A stretch of DNA of 57,995 nucleotides from Mycobacterium sp. UM_WGJ. Its GTDB lineage: Bacteria > Actinomycetota > Actinomycetes > Mycobacteriales > Mycobacteriaceae. Below, piece after piece: positions 48,356-57,941 of this stretch. Below the pieces are notes generated by a model. It searched no databases and was not told the origin of the DNA. It worked only from the letters and a program-made list of their open reading frames with translations. The first letter of the stretch is position 1, and every line of letters begins with the position of its first letter. The stretch is from assembly GCF_000455125.1 (NCBI RefSeq), contig NZ_AUWR01000062.1, forward strand, positions 1-57,995. The letters run 5' to 3'. The translations under genes were made by a program, and so were the position numbers.

Positions 48356-48409
48356 TGACCGGTCCCTGATCGACGGGCCCACAAGGGCCATTTGTGATTG
48401 CATGGGGAG

Positions 48410-49354
48410 ATGGCGCTGAGCCCCCGCATGCCCGATTTGCCGGCGTTCGAGATGTTGGTGGCTATCGCCAGAACCGGCAGCCTCGGCGCTGCCGGCCGGG
48501 AATTGGGGCTGACGCAGCAGGCGGTTTCGGCACGCCTGTCAGCGATGGAGGCCCAGACCGGTGTGCGACTTGTGAGCCGTAGTGCGCGTGGTTCGCAGTT
48601 AACCTCGGCCGGGGCGGTCGTGACGGAGTGGGCAGACCAGCTACTGGATATTGCCAGTCACGTCGACGCCGGGATGGCTTCGTTGCGGTCCGCCAGCCGT
48701 AAGAAGATGAAGGTGGCTGCGAGTCTCACGGTTGCCGAACAGTTGATGCCGCGCTGGATCGTGACACTGCAGGCTTCCGCCACGCGAACCGGTCGCCAGG
48801 CACCGGAGGTCATTCTGACCGCCACCAACAGCGAGCAGGTCATCGCGAGCGTGCGAGGCGGAGCGGCGGACCTGGGCTTCATCGAGAGCCCGGGAGCGCT
48901 GACCGGTATTCGAAGCCGTGTTGTTGCGCGCGACGAACTCGTGGTGATCGTGCCGCCGGACCACAAATGGGCGCGTCGCATCAACGGCGTGACCGCCGCA
49001 GAACTCAGCCAGACCCCGCTGGTCGTGCGTGAACAGGGTTCGGGAACGCGTGACTCGCTGACGTCGGCGCTGCGTGCGGTCTTGGGCCACGAGGTGGCAC
49101 AGCCACGTCCGGCATTGGAACTGTCTTCGTCGGTCGCCGTTCGTGGGGCCGTACTGGCCGGAGCCGGGCCGGCGGTGATGAGCAGGTTGGCGGTCGCCGA
49201 TGACCTTGCGGTCGGCCGGCTCCGCAGCGTCGAAGTACCGGAACTGGACCTGCATCGTGATCTCAGGGCGATCTGGGCGGGCGGGCGCACACCGCCGGCC
49301 GGTGCCGTCCGGGACCTGTTGAGCCACATCGGCGGCGCCAACCCACCGCGCTGA
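48410..49354 (+). CDS. LysR family transcriptional regulator
   Basis: The 314-residue regulator has an N-terminal winged HTH (MPDLPAFEMLVAIARTGS, then AAGRELGLTQQAVSARLSAME) and a periplasmic-binding-like effector domain (about 95-300) with GGAADLGFIESPG. The start is uncertain: ATG 48410 is used, with ATG 48428 and TTG 48398 possible. There is no counterpart between Rv2522c and Rv2521 in H37Rv. It converges on the flavoprotein gene at 49367, which is a plausible target together with the inverted repeat at 50536-50558. The effector is unknown. Confidence 0.88.
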   Translation: MALSPRMPDLPAFEMLVAIARTGSLGAAGRELGLTQQAVSARLSAMEAQTGVRLVSRSARGSQLTSAGAVVTEWADQLLDIASHVDAGMASLRSASRKKMKVAASLTVAEQLMPRWIVTLQASATRTGRQAPEVILTATNSEQVIASVRGGAADLGFIESPGALTGIRSRVVARDELVVIVPPDHKWARRINGVTAAELSQTPLVVREQGSGTRDSLTSALRAVLGHEVAQPRPALELSSSVAVRGAVLAGAGPAVMSRLAVADDLAVGRLRSVEVPELDLHRDLRAIWAGGRTPPAGAVRDLLSHIGGANPPR

Positions 49355-49366
49355 AGCACGTCTCGG

Positions 49367-50404
49367 CTATGTCCCGTACTGCAACCACAGGGGCAGAGCG
49401 CTGTTGAGCCGCTGCATGAACTTGATCAGTCCGATCCGATACTGCCCAGATCCGAACGAGTCGATTCCGTACTCGGGGAAGGCAATCCCGACCCCGAACA
49501 GTCCCGGGGCAATGATCCCGGTCACCGGATCGTATTCCAGCTCCCCCCACTGCGGGGTCGCGGGGAGCTGCCGCCGGGTGAACCCGACGGTGTAGACAAC
49601 GTGGCTACAGGCCTGCAGCTGCTCGGCGAACTCCTTGTCGTCGACCCGATACCGCTCCAGGCGCTCCGGGAAGGTTCCGTCGATGTTCTCGCGGGCCCAC
49701 GTTGCGGCATTTCCCTTCAGGCCAGTGTCGTCGAACAGAATCTGATCACCTAGGTAGACAGCGTATTTCGTCGGGCTTCGATAGAAGTTGACGATCTTGC
49801 GGACCCGGGTGTCCAACAGGTTGGGCAGGGCCACCATCGATGAGTGTGACGAGCCGAAGACGGCCACCGTGGCATCGTCCAACGCCAGCTGTCCGAGCTT
49901 GTCGGGGTTCAGCGCCACGTCGATCGGAATCTCTTGCAGGTGGGGGTGATAGAGAGTCTTGGGAACCGAGCCGACGGCCAGAATCACGTTCTTCGCTTCG
50001 ATCTCGGTGTCCGGGGTGCTCACCAACCAGTGGCGGTTGCGCAGGGTGAGCTCGGTTGCCACCGTGCGAAGGGCGGTGACCCGCTCGGTCAGGTGTTGGG
50101 AGATCCACACCAGCGGATCGGCGATCAGGCCGAGTGGGCAGGTCTGCCCGGGATCGATGTCAGTCAGCTCAAAGTGCGGCGCTTCGGCGAAGCGGAACGA
50201 CGGGGAGCCGTTCAAGTAGTCGAGGAAGAGCGACACATGGGTGTTGCCCGGGACGGCGCGCCATTTGGTGCCGACGTCCCCGGCGGCAAAGTCGGGATCG
50301 ATCCAGACGATCTCGTTCCCGGGGATGCCATGGTCGAGCAGTCGGCCCACCGCGGCGATGCCTGCGGGTCCAGCTCCGATCACTGCCCAGCTATGCCCAG
50401 TCAT
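49367..50404 (-). CDS. FAD-dependent pyridine nucleotide-disulfide-type oxidoreductase
   Basis: The 345-residue flavoprotein has an N-terminal FAD motif AVIGAGPAGIAAVGRL (about 7-22), a central NAD(P)-type segment ATVAVFGSSHSSMVAL and the ILAVGSVPKT hinge. No redox CXXC is present, so a disulfide reductase role is unlikely; a monooxygenase-like or reductase activity on a small molecule is more likely. ATG 50404 has AGGAAG directly upstream. The gene and the convergent LysR gene form an island inside the fas-to-bcp block. The substrate is unknown. Confidence 0.82.
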   Translation of the reverse strand: MTGHSWAVIGAGPAGIAAVGRLLDHGIPGNEIVWIDPDFAAGDVGTKWRAVPGNTHVSLFLDYLNGSPSFRFAEAPHFELTDIDPGQTCPLGLIADPLVWISQHLTERVTALRTVATELTLRNRHWLVSTPDTEIEAKNVILAVGSVPKTLYHPHLQEIPIDVALNPDKLGQLALDDATVAVFGSSHSSMVALPNLLDTRVRKIVNFYRSPTKYAVYLGDQILFDDTGLKGNAATWARENIDGTFPERLERYRVDDKEFAEQLQACSHVVYTVGFTRRQLPATPQWGELEYDPVTGIIAPGLFGVGIAFPEYGIDSFGSGQYRIGLIKFMQRLNSALPLWLQYGT

Positions 50405-50535
50405 CTTCCTGCCTTCCAACGGGGTAGGAGTAGCGCGCCGTGTTGGTCGCTCGATCCGGCGGCTACCCAAGCCCGACCGTTGGAAACAATGCTCCGCCCG
50501 CCGCCAGCCCGTGACTAGTGGGGTTGTTCTTGTCG

Positions 50536-50558
50536 GCTCACAATTAGTAGTTGTGAGC
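50536..50558. promoter_or_regulatory. inverted repeat GCTCACAA-N7-TTGTGAGC
   Basis: Perfect 8-bp arms (50536-50543 and 50551-50558) flank TTAGTAG. The repeat lies upstream of the flavoprotein gene, just downstream of a TTGACC -35-like hexamer (minus strand, 50562-50567), so a bound repressor could block that promoter. The arms are in the opposite order to a CRP site. A weak terminator for bcp is the alternative. Confidence 0.45.
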
Positions 50559-50613
50559 TGCGGTCAACGCCCCCCGGCTGCCGCCGAGCGCTGGCCTTTA
50601 TCGAGGGCGGGGG

Positions 50614-51090
50614 TCAGACCGACAGATCGCGCCGCAGTTTCGCGACGTGCCCCGTTGCCCGCACGTTGTACTGGGCCTCGGCGATCTTGCCCTGCTCGTC
50701 GACGACGAACGTCGAGCGGATGACGCCTTGCACGGTCTTGCCGTACATCTTCTTCTCGCCGTAGGCGCCCCAGGCCGTCAACACCGATCGGTCCGGGTCG
50801 GACAGCAGCGGGAAGGTCAACCCCTCGGCGTCGCGGAATTTGGCCAGTTTGGCGGGCTTGTCGGGGGAGATCCCGACCACGTCGAGGCCGGCGTCGTTGA
50901 AGTCGCGCAGGTTGTCGCGGAAGTCGCAGGCCTGCTTGGTGCAGCCGGGGGTCGAGGCCGCCGGGTAGAAGTAGACGACGACCCGTCGTCCCCGGTAGTC
51001 GGCCAGTGACACGGTGTTGCCGTCGGCGTCGGGAAGCCTGAACGCGGGCGCTTCATCGCCGGGCGCCAGGCGTGCGGTGTCGGTCAACAA
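50614..51090 (-). CDS. bcp: thiol peroxidase of the Bcp/PrxQ type
   Basis: The 158-residue peroxiredoxin reduces hydrogen peroxide and organic peroxides. The peroxidatic Cys is in PAASTPGC (about Cys50) and the resolving Cys is five residues later in KQAC (Cys55), the alpha2 helix arrangement of PrxQ. GEKKMYGKTVQGVIRSTFVV is also typical. Start is TTG 51090 or the next codon, TTG 51087; AAAGGGG lies just upstream and its spacing favours 51087. It is divergent from the DUF3618 gene. Orthologue: Rv2521. Confidence 0.93.
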   Translation of the reverse strand: MLTDTARLAPGDEAPAFRLPDADGNTVSLADYRGRRVVVYFYPAASTPGCTKQACDFRDNLRDFNDAGLDVVGISPDKPAKLAKFRDAEGLTFPLLSDPDRSVLTAWGAYGEKKMYGKTVQGVIRSTFVVDEQGKIAEAQYNVRATGHVAKLRRDLSV

Positions 51091-51136
51091 CTGCCCCTTT
51101 CTGCTCGCCGGGGCCTGAGACGAACCCCGGCTGCTC

Positions 51137-51142
51137 TAGGGT
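51137..51142 (+). promoter_or_regulatory. -10 hexamer TAGGGT for DUF3618 gene
   Basis: TAGGGT lies 37 bases before GTG 51180, leaving a leader with a GGGAGGA ribosome site. Confidence 0.45.
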
Positions 51143-51179
51143 AGTTCGACAGGGTCAGCATCGGACAGGGAGGACGACA

Positions 51180-51407
51180 GTGGCGGAACGCGATCCCGAC
51201 ACGATCAAAAAGGACATCGATCAGGCCCGCGAGCAGCTGGCGTCGACGGTCGATATTCTCGCGGACCGGGCCAACCCCCGTCGGCTGGCCGACCGCGCCA
51301 AGGCCCGGGCGGTCGAGATCGTCACCCAGCCGGTGGTAATGGCGTCGCTGGCCGGTGTCGGCGGAGTGATCCTCATCCTGACCATTCGCCGAATCCGCAA
51401 CCGCTGA
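51180..51407 (+). CDS. DUF3618 small membrane protein (Rv2520c-like)
   Basis: The 75-residue protein has a charged helical N terminus (RDPDTIKKDIDQAREQL, then ADRANPRRLADRAKARA) and one C-terminal membrane helix ending with RRIRNR, so it is tail-anchored. GTG 51180 has GGGAGGA upstream. Size and position beside bcp match Rv2520c. Function is unknown. A strong terminator follows at 51458-51494. Confidence 0.88.
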   Translation: MAERDPDTIKKDIDQAREQLASTVDILADRANPRRLADRAKARAVEIVTQPVVMASLAGVGGVILILTIRRIRNR

Positions 51408-51457
51408 GATCTGCGCGCGCGACCGCGAAACTGGGTCTGGTGGCGCACTGAAGCCAA

Positions 51458-51494
51458 ACGGCCGGGAGGGGACTCAGTGTCCCTTCCCGGCCGT
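51458..51494. terminator. bidirectional terminator hairpin
   Basis: A 16-bp stem with one G-T pair (51458-51473 with 51479-51494) closes a 5-base loop. It lies between the convergent DUF3618 and porin-like genes and can serve both. Confidence 0.8.
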
Positions 51495-51524
51495 CGGTGC
51501 GTTCTACCGCTGCAACCCTGGGGC

Positions 51525-52496
51525 TTACAACAGGTCGCCGTCGATCTCGGGGACGGGCAGGATTTCCACGGCATTGACCGGCAGATCCGCGGTGCCCACC
51601 GTGAGTGCCTCGGCGGCGCGCGCCGGCCAGTCCACCAGCAGCAGGTCGAAGATGCTGTCGTTGTTGATCAGGCCCACGAAGACAGCTTCCGTCTCGGGGA
51701 CGACATAGCCGTTGACCAACGTGTTCACCAGGTCCGCGGGGGCACTCAGGAGCGCTTCGAAGTCACCGCCGAGGACGTTGGTCAGGGTTTCGGTCAGCTG
51801 GTAGAAGACGCCGATCATCGGCGCCATCATGGTCTGGCTGACCGCCTTGATGAAGGCCCACGCGTCCAGGGGGCCGATGAACTCGTTGAGCAGACTCGAC
51901 ATGTTCTCCGCCTCGCGGGCGGGGATGGACAGCACCGGGCCCATCGCCTTGCCGATGTCCTCAATGCCGTACAGCGTCCAGATGTTGAGTTCGTTGAACG
52001 CCTCGAACGGGTTTCCGTTGGCGAGAGCCTCGCCCATGCGCTCCAGGAGCACTTCAAGGCCCGGGTATTTCACATCCTGGCCTTCGACGCCGAAGATCAT
52101 CTTCTCGAACGCCTCACCGATACCGGCAAAGCCCGAAGTGACGAACCGCGGCTCCATGCCCGGGCGGGCGTCCAGCGGGACGTCCTCCATGCCGATGATC
52201 AGCTGACCGTAGTCGACCCAGTTGCTGCCCAGCTGGCCGATCACATCGAAGACGTTGGCATCGTTGAACAAGGTGCTGAGGTTCTCCGCGGTGCGCTCGA
52301 ACACCGAAGACCAGCCGAAGAAGCCCTCGATTCCGGCGGTCAGCTGTACCGCCTGGTGCCGGACTTCTTGCACGGCCGGCGCGACCGGATGAACAGCCAC
52401 CAGGCCGGCTCCCGCAACAGCAATCCCGGCAGCCGCCAATCGGGTCGTCAGACCGGTCTTGGTCCTGGTCGCATTGGGTTGGACGGCGAAATCCAC
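51525..52496 (-). CDS. exported porin-like (GjpA-type?) protein with IdeR-type box upstream
   Basis: The 323-residue protein has an N-terminal signal sequence (about 18-42) followed by VRHQAVQLTAG, then a mostly helical mature region without cysteine and with repeated small-residue helices. The pattern resembles mycobacterial proteins often annotated as outer membrane porin GjpA, but this is from memory and uncertain. ATG 52496 has AAGGAG just upstream. An IdeR-like box lies 80 bases upstream, so iron repression is predicted. H37Rv has no counterpart in this position between Rv2520c and tRNA-Lys. Surface location and an iron-related role are inferred. Confidence 0.75.
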   Translation of the reverse strand: MDFAVQPNATRTKTGLTTRLAAAGIAVAGAGLVAVHPVAPAVQEVRHQAVQLTAGIEGFFGWSSVFERTAENLSTLFNDANVFDVIGQLGSNWVDYGQLIIGMEDVPLDARPGMEPRFVTSGFAGIGEAFEKMIFGVEGQDVKYPGLEVLLERMGEALANGNPFEAFNELNIWTLYGIEDIGKAMGPVLSIPAREAENMSSLLNEFIGPLDAWAFIKAVSQTMMAPMIGVFYQLTETLTNVLGGDFEALLSAPADLVNTLVNGYVVPETEAVFVGLINNDSIFDLLLVDWPARAAEALTVGTADLPVNAVEILPVPEIDGDLL

Positions 52497-52575
52497 GGTA
52501 GCTCCTTAGTTGTTGTCTGAGCTGCACCCTAGAGTTAGAGAGCAGAAGTCTGCGAGGTCGCTGATAGACATTACC

Positions 52576-52594
52576 ATAGGCAAGGCTAACCTAG
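52576..52594 (-). promoter_or_regulatory. IdeR-type iron box
   Basis: Read on the minus strand the 19 bases are CTAGGTTAGCCTTGCCTAT, matching about 15 of 19 positions of the IdeR consensus (TTAGGTTAG-S-CTAACCTAA). It lies about 80 bases before ATG 52496, in promoter range, so IdeR with iron would repress the downstream gene. Confidence 0.6.
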
Positions 52595-52745
52595 CCGGGT
52601 AAAAGTGTGATGGCGGTGACGCCGGTCCCCGGGGCGGCGATGCGGTAGCTGGAGACCTGAGCGCGGCCCGTTGGAGGGAATGGACTTCGAAACGGTCAGC
52701 TACCCCCGAGGGTGTAGCGGAGTATCGAACATCGTCCGAACTAAG

Positions 52746-52818
<73 letters not shown>

Positions 52819-52972
52819 CGTGCGGTGAAGAACCGCGAAAGAGACAATAACAGGCGCCGCGCCGGGGGACGAAATCGCGACGTCAGAGCGCTCCTGCGGA
52901 CGGCACAGCGGCAGTTTCGATAACCCACTAGACTGCCTGCGAGCAGCATCAGCACGGTCAGGTGGGAAAAGC

Positions 52973-54202
52973 ATGGGGCAGGTTGGTTTGGCGGAACGCT
53001 GCCGGGGGTTCGGGTCCCGGGCAGCTGCATTGCTGATGGTTCCGGCCACGGTAATGAGCTTGAGTGCGTGTGGTAGCAGCGCCGACGCCGAAGCGGCGAA
53101 GATCATCACCGACAAGGGCACCCCTTTCGCTGACCTGCTTATTCCCAAGGTCACTGCGTCGGTCACCGACAAGGCTGTCGGGGTCGCGGTGGACGCGCCG
53201 GTGACCGTGACCGCCGAGGACGGCGTGCTCGATTCGGTCACCATGGTCAACGAGTACGGCGCAATCGTCGACGGCAAGCTCAGTGCCGACGGGTTGACGT
53301 GGGCGACATCCGAGCAGCTCGGCTACAACAAGCGCTACACGGTCAACGCGAAGGCGTTAGGCCTCGGTGGCGTGACCAGCCGGCAGATGACGTTTCAGAC
53401 GCACTCGCCGCAGAACCTGACCATGCCCTACGTCATGCCGCGAGACGGCGAGGTCGTCGGCGTCGGTCAGCCGGTGGCGATCCGGTTCGACGAGAACATC
53501 GTTGACCGCGAGGCAGCCGAGAAAGCGATCACCATCACCACCGATCCTCCGGTGGTGGGCGCGTTCTACTGGCTGAACAATCGTGAGGTCCGCTGGCGGC
53601 CGCAGGCCTTCTGGAAGCCCGGAACCAACGTCGACGTACAGGTCAACACCTACGGGGTGGATCTGGGCAACGGGGTGTACGGGCAGGACGACGCGGCCAG
53701 CCACTTCGTCATCGGCGACGAGGTGATCGCCACCGTCGACGACGACACCAAGTCGATGGTGGTGCGGATCAACGGTGAAGTGGCCAAGACCATGCCGGTC
53801 TCGATGGGCAAGGAAAGCACCCCGACCAACAACGGCACCTACATCGTCGGCGAGCGCTTCGCGCACATCGTCATGGACTCGTCGACCTACGGGGTACCGG
53901 TCAATTCGCCCAACGGGTATCGCACCGACGTGGACTGGGCCACCCAGATCTCCTACAGCGGTATCTTCGTGCACTCGGCGCCGTGGTCGGTGGGAGCCCA
54001 GGGCTACGCCAACACCAGCCACGGCTGCATCAACGTAAGCCCCAGCAACGCGCTGTGGTTCTATGACCACGTCAAACGCGGTGACGTGGTGCAGATCAAC
54101 AACACCATCGGCTCGCTGTTGCCCGGCAACGAGGGCCTCGGCGACTGGAACGTGCCGTGGTCGCAGTGGCAGGCCGGCAACGCCAAAGACTCAGTGCGCT
54201 AG
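52973..54202 (+). CDS. ldtB: L,D-transpeptidase of the LdtMt2 type
   Basis: The 409-residue lipoprotein forms 3-3 crosslinks in peptidoglycan. It has a signal with lipobox LSAC (Cys33), two bacterial Ig-like domains (about 50-250) and a YkuD catalytic domain (about 250-385) with [11 protein letters not shown] and SHGCINVSP carrying catalytic Cys352. A C-terminal tail with [10 protein letters not shown] closes the domain as in LdtMt2. Length matches Rv2518c (408). Carbapenems acylate this Cys in the family. ATG 52973 was used; no strong ribosome site is visible. It converges on the proline-rich gene. Confidence 0.94.
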
Positions 54203-54217
54203 ACACATTAGGCGCCG

Positions 54218-54976
54218 TCAGGCCGGGGGCGGTCCGGCTTCCTCGCGCAGGTACTCCTCGCTGCCATTGGGGTAGCCCCCGCCGAACGTGGTGATATGCA
54301 CGTGGTCGTAGTGGCCGTTACCGCCACCGCTGGGTCCGGCCGGTGTGTAATAGGTACCGCGCCAGATCGCGTCCTGCATGGCGAATCGACCGGCGTTCTC
54401 CCGGACGTAAGCGACGATCTGGTCTCCCAACGCGATGCCCTCCGGGCTGCCGGCGTTGGGGATCATCACGTCGATGGCCAGTCCGGACGGATGCCAGCGC
54501 TGACCATCGGGACGCACCCCGATCATGTCGTGAATCTGCGGGAACGCTTCGCTGATGCTGCGCGCGACGAGGATCGTCTTGACCTGCATGCCGCGCTCGT
54601 TGACGATCCCCGGCGGCAGCGCGTGCGGCGCCGGCATGGACCAGTTGGTCACCAGATCGGGTGCGGGCGGTCCCCAGTCCTGCGGAGGAGGCGGAAGGTC
54701 TTCCGGTGGCGGGGGCGGCCCGTCTTCGGGTGGCGGGGGAGGCGCGTCCTCCGGTGGCGGAGGCGGCAGGTCTTCGGGCGGCGGTGGCGGCGCGTCCTCC
54801 GGAGGCGGGGGTGGCCCGTCTTCCGGTGGTGGCGGGGGAGCGTCCTCGGGCGGCGGCGCATCGACTGCGGCCGGAGGGGGTGGTTCGTCGCTGTCTCCAG
54901 GCTCGGCGCCGACGCCGCCAGCCAAGAACACGGCGGCCGGCAACACTGTTGTCGCGGCCAGAACCGAGGATTTCAT
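54218..54976 (-). CDS. exported proline-rich protein with VldE/LAS-like hydrolase domain
   Basis: The 252-residue protein has a signal sequence (about 1-24), a repeat region of about eight units of type [A/G/L]PPPPPED (about 32-100) and a C-terminal domain. The domain has NERGMQVKTILVARSI, HPSGLAIDVMIPN and GHYDHVHI, the His-Asp-His pattern of LAS/VanY-like or ARB_07466/VldE-type domains. The stalk probably spans the wall while the domain acts on peptidoglycan or glycan; this is inferred. ATG 54976 gives a normal signal; the frame extends to 55024. It lies tail to tail with ldtB, 15 bases between stops. Confidence 0.8.
   Translation of the reverse strand: MKSSVLAATTVLPAAVFLAGGVGAEPGDSDEPPPPAAVDAPPPEDAPPPPPEDGPPPPPEDAPPPPPEDLPPPPPEDAPPPPPEDGPPPPPEDLPPPPQDWGPPAPDLVTNWSMPAPHALPPGIVNERGMQVKTILVARSISEAFPQIHDMIGVRPDGQRWHPSGLAIDVMIPNAGSPEGIALGDQIVAYVRENAGRFAMQDAIWRGTYYTPAGPSGGGNGHYDHVHITTFGGGYPNGSEEYLREEAGPPPA
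54685..54865 (-). repeat. 24-bp tandem repeats encoding [AGL]PPPPPED
   Basis: About seven to eight imperfect 24-bp units encode an eight-residue proline-rich repeat with alternating A, G or L at the first position. The copies differ at synonymous positions, so the array is not freshly expanded. Copy number may vary between strains. Confidence 0.85.
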
Positions 54977-55259
54977 GCGCAGATCTACTAGTCCTTGCGT
55001 GAGCACGCAGGGAACCGTAACCAAAACGTTATCTCGACATCAACCCGGCGCGCGGAAAGGCGCACCCCGGTTGGATGCTTCGCGCTAGGGCGAGGGCGGG
55101 CTGAGTGGCCGTCGGGCGAGGTCAGCTCGGTGTGTGACACCAGTCGGCGCAAACGTAGTGGGCGAGTGTTCGCTAGGTCACAGAATCCCGAACATGGCGG
55201 CGATTGCCGACTTACATCGGTGAAATCAGCTCGGCGGCCTCGGCCAGCGGCGTCAGGGC

Positions 55260-56315
55260 CTACCAGGGCTGGAACAGGTCGCTGATCGCGTTCTGGAAAC
55301 CTTGCTGGGCGCCATCGACTAGTGCTTGCTGGACGGCGGACCAGTCCAGGTCGGTCGGGAACAATCCGAGGGGCGCTACCACGTTTGCCGGTCCCGGGAA
55401 CCAGCCGTCGGTGATGTTGCCGTAGCCCAAGTTGACCAGGATCCGCATATCGGGCTCCAACAGGTCATAGAGCGGCTGACCGACTACCGGCAGGAGCAGT
55501 AGCGGCGACAGCAGCGGCAGGGTCTGCGCCGGAATCATGTAGTAGTTCGTCAGGCCCTCGCCGGTGAGATCCGCGGAGCCCGGCAACAGCACCGCGTTGC
55601 TGATCTGCTCTGCATCGACACTCAGATACGCGAGATGCTGAGTGAAGATGCCCATGAAGGCGTTGAGGTCGGACAGCAGGTTCAGCGGATATCGGGGGAA
55701 GTCGGCGAAACCGTCGTACTCGAAGTTGTAGATGTCGGTGGGGTACAGATTGTCGGGTGTCGCCGGGAACACCCCCAAGCCGGACCAGATACCGCCGTTG
55801 GGGGCAACAGGATCGCCGACCAGCATGAAACGCATGAGGTCGCTGGGCACGCCCTGGGCCTGCAACTGGTCCATGGTCAGCCCGGAGAATCCGGCGCTTT
55901 GCGAGTACCCGAACACCACGACCGGATTCTCCGCACTGACCTGCCCGCCGGCGATCTGCTGCGTGATCGCGGACGTCAAGATCTGTGCCCCTTCGATCCG
56001 CGATTCGGCCTTGTCGAAAAAGAGCCGTTCGGGCGTGGTCAGGATCTGCATGGTGCCGGTGAAGCCATGCGGCTGTAGGTAGAGCTCGTTGGCCAGATCG
56101 GCGTAGCGCTGGCCAGGCGTCGGAATCCCGCTGGGGCCCAGGATCAGGGCGGTGCCACCCCCGAGCGGGGAGCCGGTGGTATCGCTGGCGGTCAACCGAA
56201 CCTCGGCGCCGTCGTGTTGCGCAAGCGGCACGACTGCGGCGATCAGGCCGGCGGTGACGGCGGTGCAGGCGCCGAAGGCTCGGTGCCGGCCGATGGGGTT
56301 AGGCGCGGACCACAT
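55260..56315 (-). CDS. secreted PE-PPE-domain serine hydrolase, copy 3
   Basis: The 351-residue protein has a signal sequence (about 12-33) and a PE-PPE hydrolase domain with GYSQS (Ser138), LYLQPHGFTG, TDIYNFEYDG and LVNLGYGNI. It is more divergent than the tandem pair at 191-2624, with an insert after LVGDPVAPNGG. ATG 56315 has GGGAGGA 8 bases upstream. It lies divergent from an exported phosphatase-like gene. In H37Rv PE26 lies in this general neighbourhood, but relatedness was not tested. The substrate is unknown. Confidence 0.85.
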   Translation of the reverse strand: MWSAPNPIGRHRAFGACTAVTAGLIAAVVPLAQHDGAEVRLTASDTTGSPLGGGTALILGPSGIPTPGQRYADLANELYLQPHGFTGTMQILTTPERLFFDKAESRIEGAQILTSAITQQIAGGQVSAENPVVVFGYSQSAGFSGLTMDQLQAQGVPSDLMRFMLVGDPVAPNGGIWSGLGVFPATPDNLYPTDIYNFEYDGFADFPRYPLNLLSDLNAFMGIFTQHLAYLSVDAEQISNAVLLPGSADLTGEGLTNYYMIPAQTLPLLSPLLLLPVVGQPLYDLLEPDMRILVNLGYGNITDGWFPGPANVVAPLGLFPTDLDWSAVQQALVDGAQQGFQNAISDLFQPW

Positions 56316-56374
56316 CGAGAGTTCCTCCCTGCGGCGTCATCGACGCTGCCCTCTGCCCCCGGTGGCCGAGATGG

Positions 56375-56391
56375 CCGATTCTCAATATCGG
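56375..56391. promoter_or_regulatory. inverted repeat CCGAT-N7-ATCGG
   Basis: Five-base arms in the 186-base region between divergent genes for exported enzymes. It is short and could be chance; a shared operator is possible. Confidence 0.25.
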
Positions 56392-56455
56392 GGACGCAGC
56401 GGACGGCGTCAACGCCAGATTCCTCGCAATCCCTGAGCATTGCCTGTGTGGTTGT

Positions 56456-56461
56456 TAGGGT
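56456..56461 (+). promoter_or_regulatory. -10 hexamer TAGGGT for phosphatase-superfamily gene
   Basis: TAGGGT lies 40 bases before GTG 56502 and leaves a leader with a GAGGG ribosome site. Confidence 0.45.
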
Positions 56462-56501
56462 CGTCGGCAGTCTCGCGCAAACTCCGACGAGGGAATCCGA
56501 C

Positions 56502-57941
56502 GTGACAAAGATGAAGCGGTTTCTGTGTGGTGCGACCGTCGCCGGATTGATTGCCGGAACGGGGGCGGTGGTCGGGACGCAGCCGGGGCTGTCCGCGCGG
56601 ACTGCCGACTGGCTGCTTGCTGCCGAGCACGTGTTGCTGATCGGTACCGACGGCACCAACTTGGACAAGATCCTGGAGTACGCCTACAACCAAGACAGCG
56701 GCTTCAAAACCGCGATGGACCAAGGTATTACCGGAACCGCAAGTTTGGTCAATCACACCACCTTCTCCGGCCCGTCGTGGTCGACGATCCTCACCGGAGT
56801 GTGGGACGACAAGCATGGTGTGACCAACAACCTGTTCAGTCCCGAGCCGTACAACCTGTGGCCGACGGTGTTCAACCTGCTTGAGTACTACAAGCCGGAG
56901 ATCAACACCACGGTGATCGCCGACTGGGACTACATCAACGACATCGCTGCCGCGGGCGGCTACCCGGTCGACAACAACATCTTCGTTCCCTTCGAGACCA
57001 ACTGGGCCGATGCGGACGCGCTGGTCACCGCCCAGACCATCGCCCAGATCATGGCGACCGCGGACAACCCGGAAGACATCTCCAACTTCCTGTTCTCCTA
57101 TCAGGTGCAGGTCGATGAGGCCGGGCACGGATTCGGTGGGGGGTCGGCCGAATATGCCCAAGCTGTCGTGAATGTCGGTGCCAACATCCAGCAGATCCTA
57201 GCTGCGGTAGCACAGGTGAAGGCGATCACCGGTGACGATTGGTCGATCATCATCACCACCGACCACGGACACCAGCAGTCGCACGACATCTTGGGCCACG
57301 GCTTCCAATCGCCCAACGAGACATCGTCGTTCGTCATCTTCGATCAGGCCGGCGATCACGCGACCGACGGCAGCCAGAACCTAAATTACTCGATGGTGGA
57401 CATCACGCCCACGATCTTGTCGCTGTTCGGGGTCCCGCTGCGGTCGGACTTCGACGGCGTCTCCATGGTCAACGACCCCACCATCTTGAACAGCATCGTC
57501 ACTCCCGCCGACCTCAAGCGGGCGCTGCTCGACGCGCTCGCGATGTACGGCTACCCAAATATCGGCAATGAGATCGCCTTGGCCATTCGCACGGTGCTCA
57601 CCTCTATCCCGTACGGGCTCAATCTGGTCGTCACCGAGATTGACAAGCTCTTGCAGTCGATCGTCGATCAGGACATCTTCCTGGTCAGTGGACTGGCCCA
57701 ATTCGCGCAGCAGATCAACGATTTCGTGGGCGGTCTGGTGGTCGACACCAGCGTCGCGCTGGCTCGGGGCGTTGCGTTCCTGACCGGATCGGGAGTCATC
57801 TCGCCGTCCGACCCGCCGTTGCCGCTGCCTGGTGCCTCGGAGTTCTCCGACCCGTGGGGGCTGCTCTCCGCGGGCGGCAGCCTGTTCGCACCCGACCATT
57901 CGCTCGGGGAGCTCGAACTGCCCTGGCTGCTCGACGCCTGA
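56502..57941 (+). CDS. exported alkaline-phosphatase-superfamily hydrolase
   Basis: The 479-residue protein has a signal sequence (about 4-32) and a type I phosphodiesterase/nucleotide pyrophosphatase-like domain (about 42-330). Metal and catalytic motifs are LLIGTDGTN (Asp50), the nucleophile region FSGPSWSTILTGVWDDKHGV, VDEAGHGFG, ITTDHGHQQSHD and a late DITPTILSLFGVP. A C-terminal region of about 140 residues with helical segments and a Pro/Leu-rich tail follows. It should hydrolyse phosphodi- or monoesters outside the membrane. GTG 56502 is favoured by GAGGG 8 bases upstream over ATG 56511. It is divergent from the copy 3 hydrolase. Confidence 0.88.
   Translation: MTKMKRFLCGATVAGLIAGTGAVVGTQPGLSARTADWLLAAEHVLLIGTDGTNLDKILEYAYNQDSGFKTAMDQGITGTASLVNHTTFSGPSWSTILTGVWDDKHGVTNNLFSPEPYNLWPTVFNLLEYYKPEINTTVIADWDYINDIAAAGGYPVDNNIFVPFETNWADADALVTAQTIAQIMATADNPEDISNFLFSYQVQVDEAGHGFGGGSAEYAQAVVNVGANIQQILAAVAQVKAITGDDWSIIITTDHGHQQSHDILGHGFQSPNETSSFVIFDQAGDHATDGSQNLNYSMVDITPTILSLFGVPLRSDFDGVSMVNDPTILNSIVTPADLKRALLDALAMYGYPNIGNEIALAIRTVLTSIPYGLNLVVTEIDKLLQSIVDQDIFLVSGLAQFAQQINDFVGGLVVDTSVALARGVAFLTGSGVISPSDPPLPLPGASEFSDPWGLLSAGGSLFAPDHSLGELELPWLLDA

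Follow-up and report, generated by a model that had tools for sequence, protein, structure and literature searches.

The gene at positions 51525–52496 (minus strand) of the 57,995-nucleotide stretch of the Mycobacterium sp. UM_WGJ genome analyzed here (the window) is, on comparative sequence grounds, an unlinked copy of a hitherto uncharacterized family of predicted exported proteins whose genes carry a putative IdeR box and whose sisters are linked to mycobactin genes. The conservation of this box, together with the presence of sisters among the genes for mycobactin synthesis and import, suggests that the product is probably part of the iron-scavenging surface equipment of the cell. Our preferred reading, to which we give a probability of roughly 0.6, is an exported envelope protein that is repressed by IdeR in plentiful iron and likely aids the traffic of mycobactin, carboxymycobactin or iron.

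The Window Gene and Its Predicted Product

The 323-aa open reading frame, an A-type member of the box-bearing family by its orthologs, begins with a GTG and has the ribosome-binding site AAGGAG, as read from the sequence, five bases 5′ of it (52502–52507, minus strand). Upstream of the GTG the frame is open for just 9 nt, and a TTG located 57 nt into the gene offers the next candidate start. A preliminary description had called the product exported and porin-like. The first term agrees with the N-terminus, where a basic N-region is followed by a hydrophobic stretch (best 19-residue hydropathy window 1.87, from residue 20; at most 1.34 past the N-terminus), and we place a putative export-type region at residues 1–42 (52371–52496, minus strand); on this hydropathy pattern the protein is predicted to be exported. 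The second term survives as an N-terminal similarity to GjpA (NF033942, “outer membrane porin GjpA”), the sole NCBIfam match, which covers residues 23–98 (E 8e-10) and, at 38.5 bits, stays below the cut-off of 100; assignment as a porin by family membership was rejected on this score. The family name of GjpA implies pore activity. An isolated pore-forming protein of Gordonia jacobaea is mentioned, with no use of the name GjpA, in PMC4559739, and the literature matches for GjpA looked unrelated judging by their titles.

Family alignment reveals a conserved C-terminal block, NGY...GL...P...AL, at residues 262–298 (51603–51713, minus strand), in which N262, G263, G275, L276, and P291 are invariant among 12 aligned members. 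The dN/dS of the window gene is 0.15 and 0.26 against the orthologs of Mycolicibacter engbaekii and M. nonchromogenicus, and 0.33 and 0.47 against the more distant L016 and L019. A Pfam scan of the protein returned just DHOR (E 0.14), a search for solved structural relatives found none, its one match (E 0.051) being regarded as chance like the DHOR match, and a plasmid search with the protein gave nothing useful. The predicted structure, made from three input sequences, is unusable (mean pLDDT 29), so that, with no solved relative, a pore or binding site is without structural support.

The window copy and its syntenic orthologs are located between DUF3618 and L,D-transpeptidase genes, outside the mycobactin/irt locus. 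None of the eight neighboring proteins scanned (48398–57938), two of which are without a family, has a siderophore or transport domain, which agrees with the earlier remark that no such gene is nearby.

A Conserved Putative IdeR Box Upstream of the Window Gene

The putative IdeR/DtxR box ATAGGCAAGGCTAACCTAG lies at 52576–52594, 79 bp before the GTG. It matches the published consensus TTAGGTTAGGCTAACCTAA at 15 of 19 positions on the plus strand and 14 of 19 on the minus strand, confirming the element of about 15/19 some 80 bases upstream that had been noticed in the preliminary description, and it matches the degenerate form TWAGGTWAGSCTWACCTWA at 16 of 19; the IdeR consensus is given as TTAGGTTAGSCTAACCTAA (excerpt of PMC10317159). 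It is the sole 16/19 site in the window, and the whole 4.47-Mb genome contains four places with at most three mismatches versus none for a reversed control pattern. First-order random sequence of 5.8 Mb yielded no site at 16 or above and two at 15, and a less strict estimate from letter frequencies gives 0.84 expected sites per 4.47 Mb. By itself the window box is thus suggestive; its conservation across loci makes the reading firm. Two DtxR-family genes exceeding the PF02742 cut-off are present in the genome.

A-type genes were sought in 396 genomes of the genus, with the best five candidates per genome scored in most of them, and this yielded 15 loci (at least 57% identity) in 13 genomes, including our own and those of Mycolicibacter engbaekii and M. 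nonchromogenicus. Each of the 15 carries, at the aligned position, a box of at least 14 (15 or 16 at 12 loci, and a weak 14 at L019, L084, and L087), so the loss in close relatives that would have spoken against the box was not seen. Alignment of the 15 upstream regions also points to a possible −10 element, TATCAG in the window (52561–52566, minus strand) and TATTAT-like in relatives, separated from the box by about 9 bp. The box immediately precedes this guessed −10 without covering it and would, if the guess holds, sit over the −35 region.

Thirteen of the A-type loci, the window included, retain window neighbors, for example the genes for the DUF3618 protein and the L,D-transpeptidase, the transpeptidase not being seen at L080 and L089 within the stretch examined. 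G078 and G181 each have an additional copy at another location, where it follows a gene for a 1058-aa protein that is an MMPL transporter in G078. The second copy of G078 (L083, 1795–10725) has a box of 15 and is flanked by the MMPL transporter gene on one side and P-type ATPase and multicopper oxidase genes on the other; that of G181 (L086, 1681–8920) has a box of 16. We considered and rejected the box as an element of the tRNA-Lys (52745–52818) or of the L,D-transpeptidase gene, because the B-type loci described below and the extra A-type loci keep it where tblastn finds no such transpeptidase.

Other High-Scoring Boxes in the Same Genome

The four best box places in the genome are those of the window gene, of a DUF2470 gene on contig C45 and two on contig C8. 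From its domain and neighbors, we regard the C45 gene as a putative counterpart of Rv3839 of Mycobacterium tuberculosis. Rv3839 has a DUF2470 domain, belongs to an operon strongly induced by low iron and affects heme levels (excerpt of PMC13258150). Its putative counterpart among the top boxes fits a rival view of the window protein as a surface receptor or pore for heme, akin to the PPE proteins of M. tuberculosis, as do the predicted IdeR control and export-type N-terminus. PPE36, PPE62, and PPE64 are mycomembrane proteins that serve heme use (PMC10117145, in the part available) and would share with the window protein a role in iron acquisition at the surface, but they are of another sequence family, the Pfam scan of the window protein returned no PPE domain, and its sisters are linked to mycobactin and IrtAB rather than heme genes. 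We regard a heme function as quite unlikely.

The two C8 boxes start 40 bp apart, between a gene for a 303-aa sister and divergent genes identified by NCBIfam as MbtM (870 bits, cut-off 621) and MbtN (766 bits, cut-off 700). Also encoded in the same 19 kb are a salicylate synthase (603 bits, cut-off 325.15), a GNAT protein and two ABC proteins, one of which is an IrtA-like transporter containing siderophore-interacting domains. As the irtA-like and mbtI promoters score 15 and the mbtM-side box 17, the window score of 16 falls in the range of expected IdeR targets of the same genome. The 303-aa C8 protein first surfaced as a weak paralog of the window protein, and hhalign indicates that the two are homologous over their full length (99.7%, E 9e-26).

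Comparison strongly supports the predicted regulation of the window gene by IdeR. The preliminary description is thereby supported in part: the iron regulation predicted in it stands in this form, resting on the conserved box and on the same box at the mycobactin- and IrtAB-linked sisters.

Sister Genes among Siderophore Genes

The C8 sister represents the B-type (mbtM-linked) proteins, found in 14 of 297 genomes. Every one of the 14 loci has a box scoring at least 15 at 100–104 bp before the start, about the same distance as at A-type loci. A divergent mbtM homolog is present at 13 of them; in G181 the B-type gene follows irtA and irtB. Most B-type intergenic regions contain two boxes, a feature that would fit activation by IdeR in high iron, as for bfrA and bfrB, and hence a role in iron storage or detoxification, since activated genes tend to have several boxes (excerpt of PMC10317159). 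The second B-type box adjoins the divergent gene, however (mbtL in G150), A-type promoters have one aligned box, and activating boxes are described as multiple and upstream of the promoter (excerpts of PMC9132128 and PMC10317159), all of which makes activation of the window gene very improbable. In published IdeR genes, a single box at the promoter means repression (same two excerpts), from which we infer high-iron repression of the window gene.

At 11 of the 14 B-type loci, homologs of an SDR gene and of a gene for a 306-aa, weakly AurF N-oxygenase-like protein (below cut-off) are found, seen after the mbtM-linked sister at L046 9965–11762; these two genes could belong to the iron locus.

Two C-type genes are also found within siderophore clusters, in which MbtA, MbtB, MbtK, and MbtL names were assigned by domains and gene order. 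In G388, the C-type gene, with a box of 18/19, is flanked by genes for an MbtB-like NRPS on one side and, on the other, for an MbtA-like adenylating enzyme that reaches 584 bits with TIGR02275, less than the cut-off of 723.55. In G150, it directly follows the MbtB-like NRPS gene, in a region that also contains a B-type copy, an acyl carrier protein gene in the mbtL position, mbtM, mbtN, irtA, irtB, and genes for a lysine/ornithine oxygenase and another NRPS. Ten stretches with family or siderophore genes (∼141 kb) contain 17 boxes of at least 15, of which 15 are upstream of mbtI, MbtB-like, mbtL-position, irtA or family genes; of the other two, the first directly adjoins a thioesterase gene and the second, which is unassigned, lies ∼0.6 kb ahead of a ketosynthase gene.

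Among three other members checked, a Fur-family gene lies beside L093 and L094 and not beside L092. These regulator genes (L093, 4505–5323; L094, 7864–8652) adjoin box-bearing C-type or related genes, so that some copies of the family may answer to a second metal regulator.

Relationship to GjpA

The window protein is homologous to the mbtM-linked sister and falls on the same side of the tree, as expected of a member of the box-bearing family. In a phylogeny of 61 proteins, 46 rows (A 15, B 14, C 6, and D 11) are separated from 15 GjpA rows by a branch with an SH-aLRT of 99, and the box label requires two changes, L033 being labeled as without a box. Rows were selected for their resemblance to the window protein or with the GjpA model, and long branches are seen among several of those for GjpA, so intermediate families may be missing from this tree.

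GjpA is among the closest known systems, being similar in the N-terminal region and having many paralogs in the same genomes, and a comparison of profiles points to remote homology spanning 224 columns (95.5%, E 1.5e-8). It differs in lacking the box: at 30 loci of GjpA relatives (14 of 41 genomes; 19 of the loci over the NF033942 cut-off), no box of at least 15 and one of 14 was found, with the qualification that at L053, L054, L055, L065, and L076 the match begins inside the profile and the scanned stretch is therefore partly coding. Seven other paralogs in our own genome, three of them among these 30 loci, likewise have none of at least 15 and one of 14. NF033942 does not match the B-type sister at E 0.001 and gives 26–35 bits with three long or mid-length members.

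A profile built from 12 members, themselves drawn from box-bearing ones, found 30 loci, 29 of which score at least 15 (L186: 12) versus 5 of 448 control stretches; all 14 of the loci new to the analysis score at least 15. The family is unevenly distributed, being present in 32 of 118 genomes at E 1e-30.

Proposed Role

When iron is plentiful, iron-loaded IdeR would bind the 19-bp box at the promoter and block transcription; in iron starvation, IdeR would be released and the window gene transcribed. Linkage of the sisters and the export-type N-terminus suggest that the product is sited in the periplasm or mycomembrane, where it may help mycobactin, carboxymycobactin or its iron to travel, in one direction or the other, from cell surface to inner-membrane machinery or back. 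The window protein would accordingly work like an accessory envelope part of the siderophore system and may contribute to moving siderophore or iron over the mycomembrane. Sisters in mycobactin and IrtAB loci tie it to siderophores far better than does the window alone. The likeness to IdeR-repressed mbt and irtAB genes lies in the same box, in the same score range within this genome, and in the sisters inside those loci; the window gene differs in being unlinked and in encoding no known synthesis or import enzyme. Another parallel is Rv0455c, a periplasmic protein needed for siderophore secretion; it is exported, extracytoplasmic and tied to siderophore traffic, but it is ∼14 kDa, has a DUF5078 domain and is encoded beside the mmpL4/5 genes (excerpt of PMC9042941), and the Pfam scan returned no such domain for the window protein.

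The same regulatory evidence would also suit an IdeR-repressed protein with a structural or protective task in the envelope during iron starvation, involving no movement of siderophore or iron. The adjoining gene of the window copy and its syntenic orthologs is that for an L,D-transpeptidase, not an iron gene, the envelope is altered by iron starvation (excerpt of PMC9132128) and the Ser/Gly/Asp-rich tails of D-type members resemble surface material. However, the B-type members and two C-type members are situated among siderophore genes, favoring a siderophore-related task, and we consider the structural or protective explanation unlikely.

For the passage of mycobactin over the mycobacterial outer membrane, a yet-unnamed outer-membrane protein and a putative surface receptor have been invoked (PMC9042941, in the part available). 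The boxed, predicted exported family supplies direct candidates, encoded next to mbtM, after irtAB or in the interval separating an mbtB-like from an mbtA-like gene. In its strongest form, which is tentative and about as doubtful as the structural explanation, the proposal would be that, wherever a species possesses the family, one of its members is the carrier that takes mycobactins over the mycomembrane, the window gene being a dispersed, IdeR-controlled copy that provides a second surface route. Unlinked copies such as this one enlarge what is likely the iron regulon in the Mycolicibacter group and would be overlooked by annotation based on neighborhood only. We recognized no description of the box-bearing family in the literature, as judged mostly from titles, with most subscription journals outside the search.

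D-Type Members and a Second Promoter Repeat

D-type proteins are longer (∼470–555 aa, including the Ser/Gly/Asp-rich tails), and a search at E 1e-40 recovered them from 36 of 396 genomes. Boxes of at least 14 were found at 23 of 30 D-type loci and in 4 of 447 control stretches, leaving seven loci without one. L138, L139, L140, L142, and L143 have no box above 12 in the upstream 250 bases, and this group likely lost, or never had, IdeR control.

At many D-type loci, a direct repeat, TCAGSTA-N4-TCAGSTA, falls on the right arm of the 19-mer; this repeat is also present in some GjpA promoters without an iron box. Given this overlap and the D-type loci without a box, the IdeR reading is firm for the A, B, and most C types and less sure for D. 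The presence of the repeat in related promoters might also be taken to mean that the window element itself is due to chance or is the site of another regulator. At 13 A-type loci, however, both arms of the box match (left 6–9 and right 6–7 of 9), and no stretch upstream of them matches the direct repeat at more than 11/14; the occurrence of the box at 15 of 15 loci and the random-sequence rates further argue against chance. We consider such an origin of the window element highly improbable.

The repeat has an 11-bp period and is found upstream of several GjpA-family and C- or D-type genes, at −92 (L052 and L060), −89 (L072), and −69 (L190) relative to the matched start. Its form suggests the site of a response regulator. 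In L029, L177, and L190, the iron box starts 25 bp upstream of this repeat.
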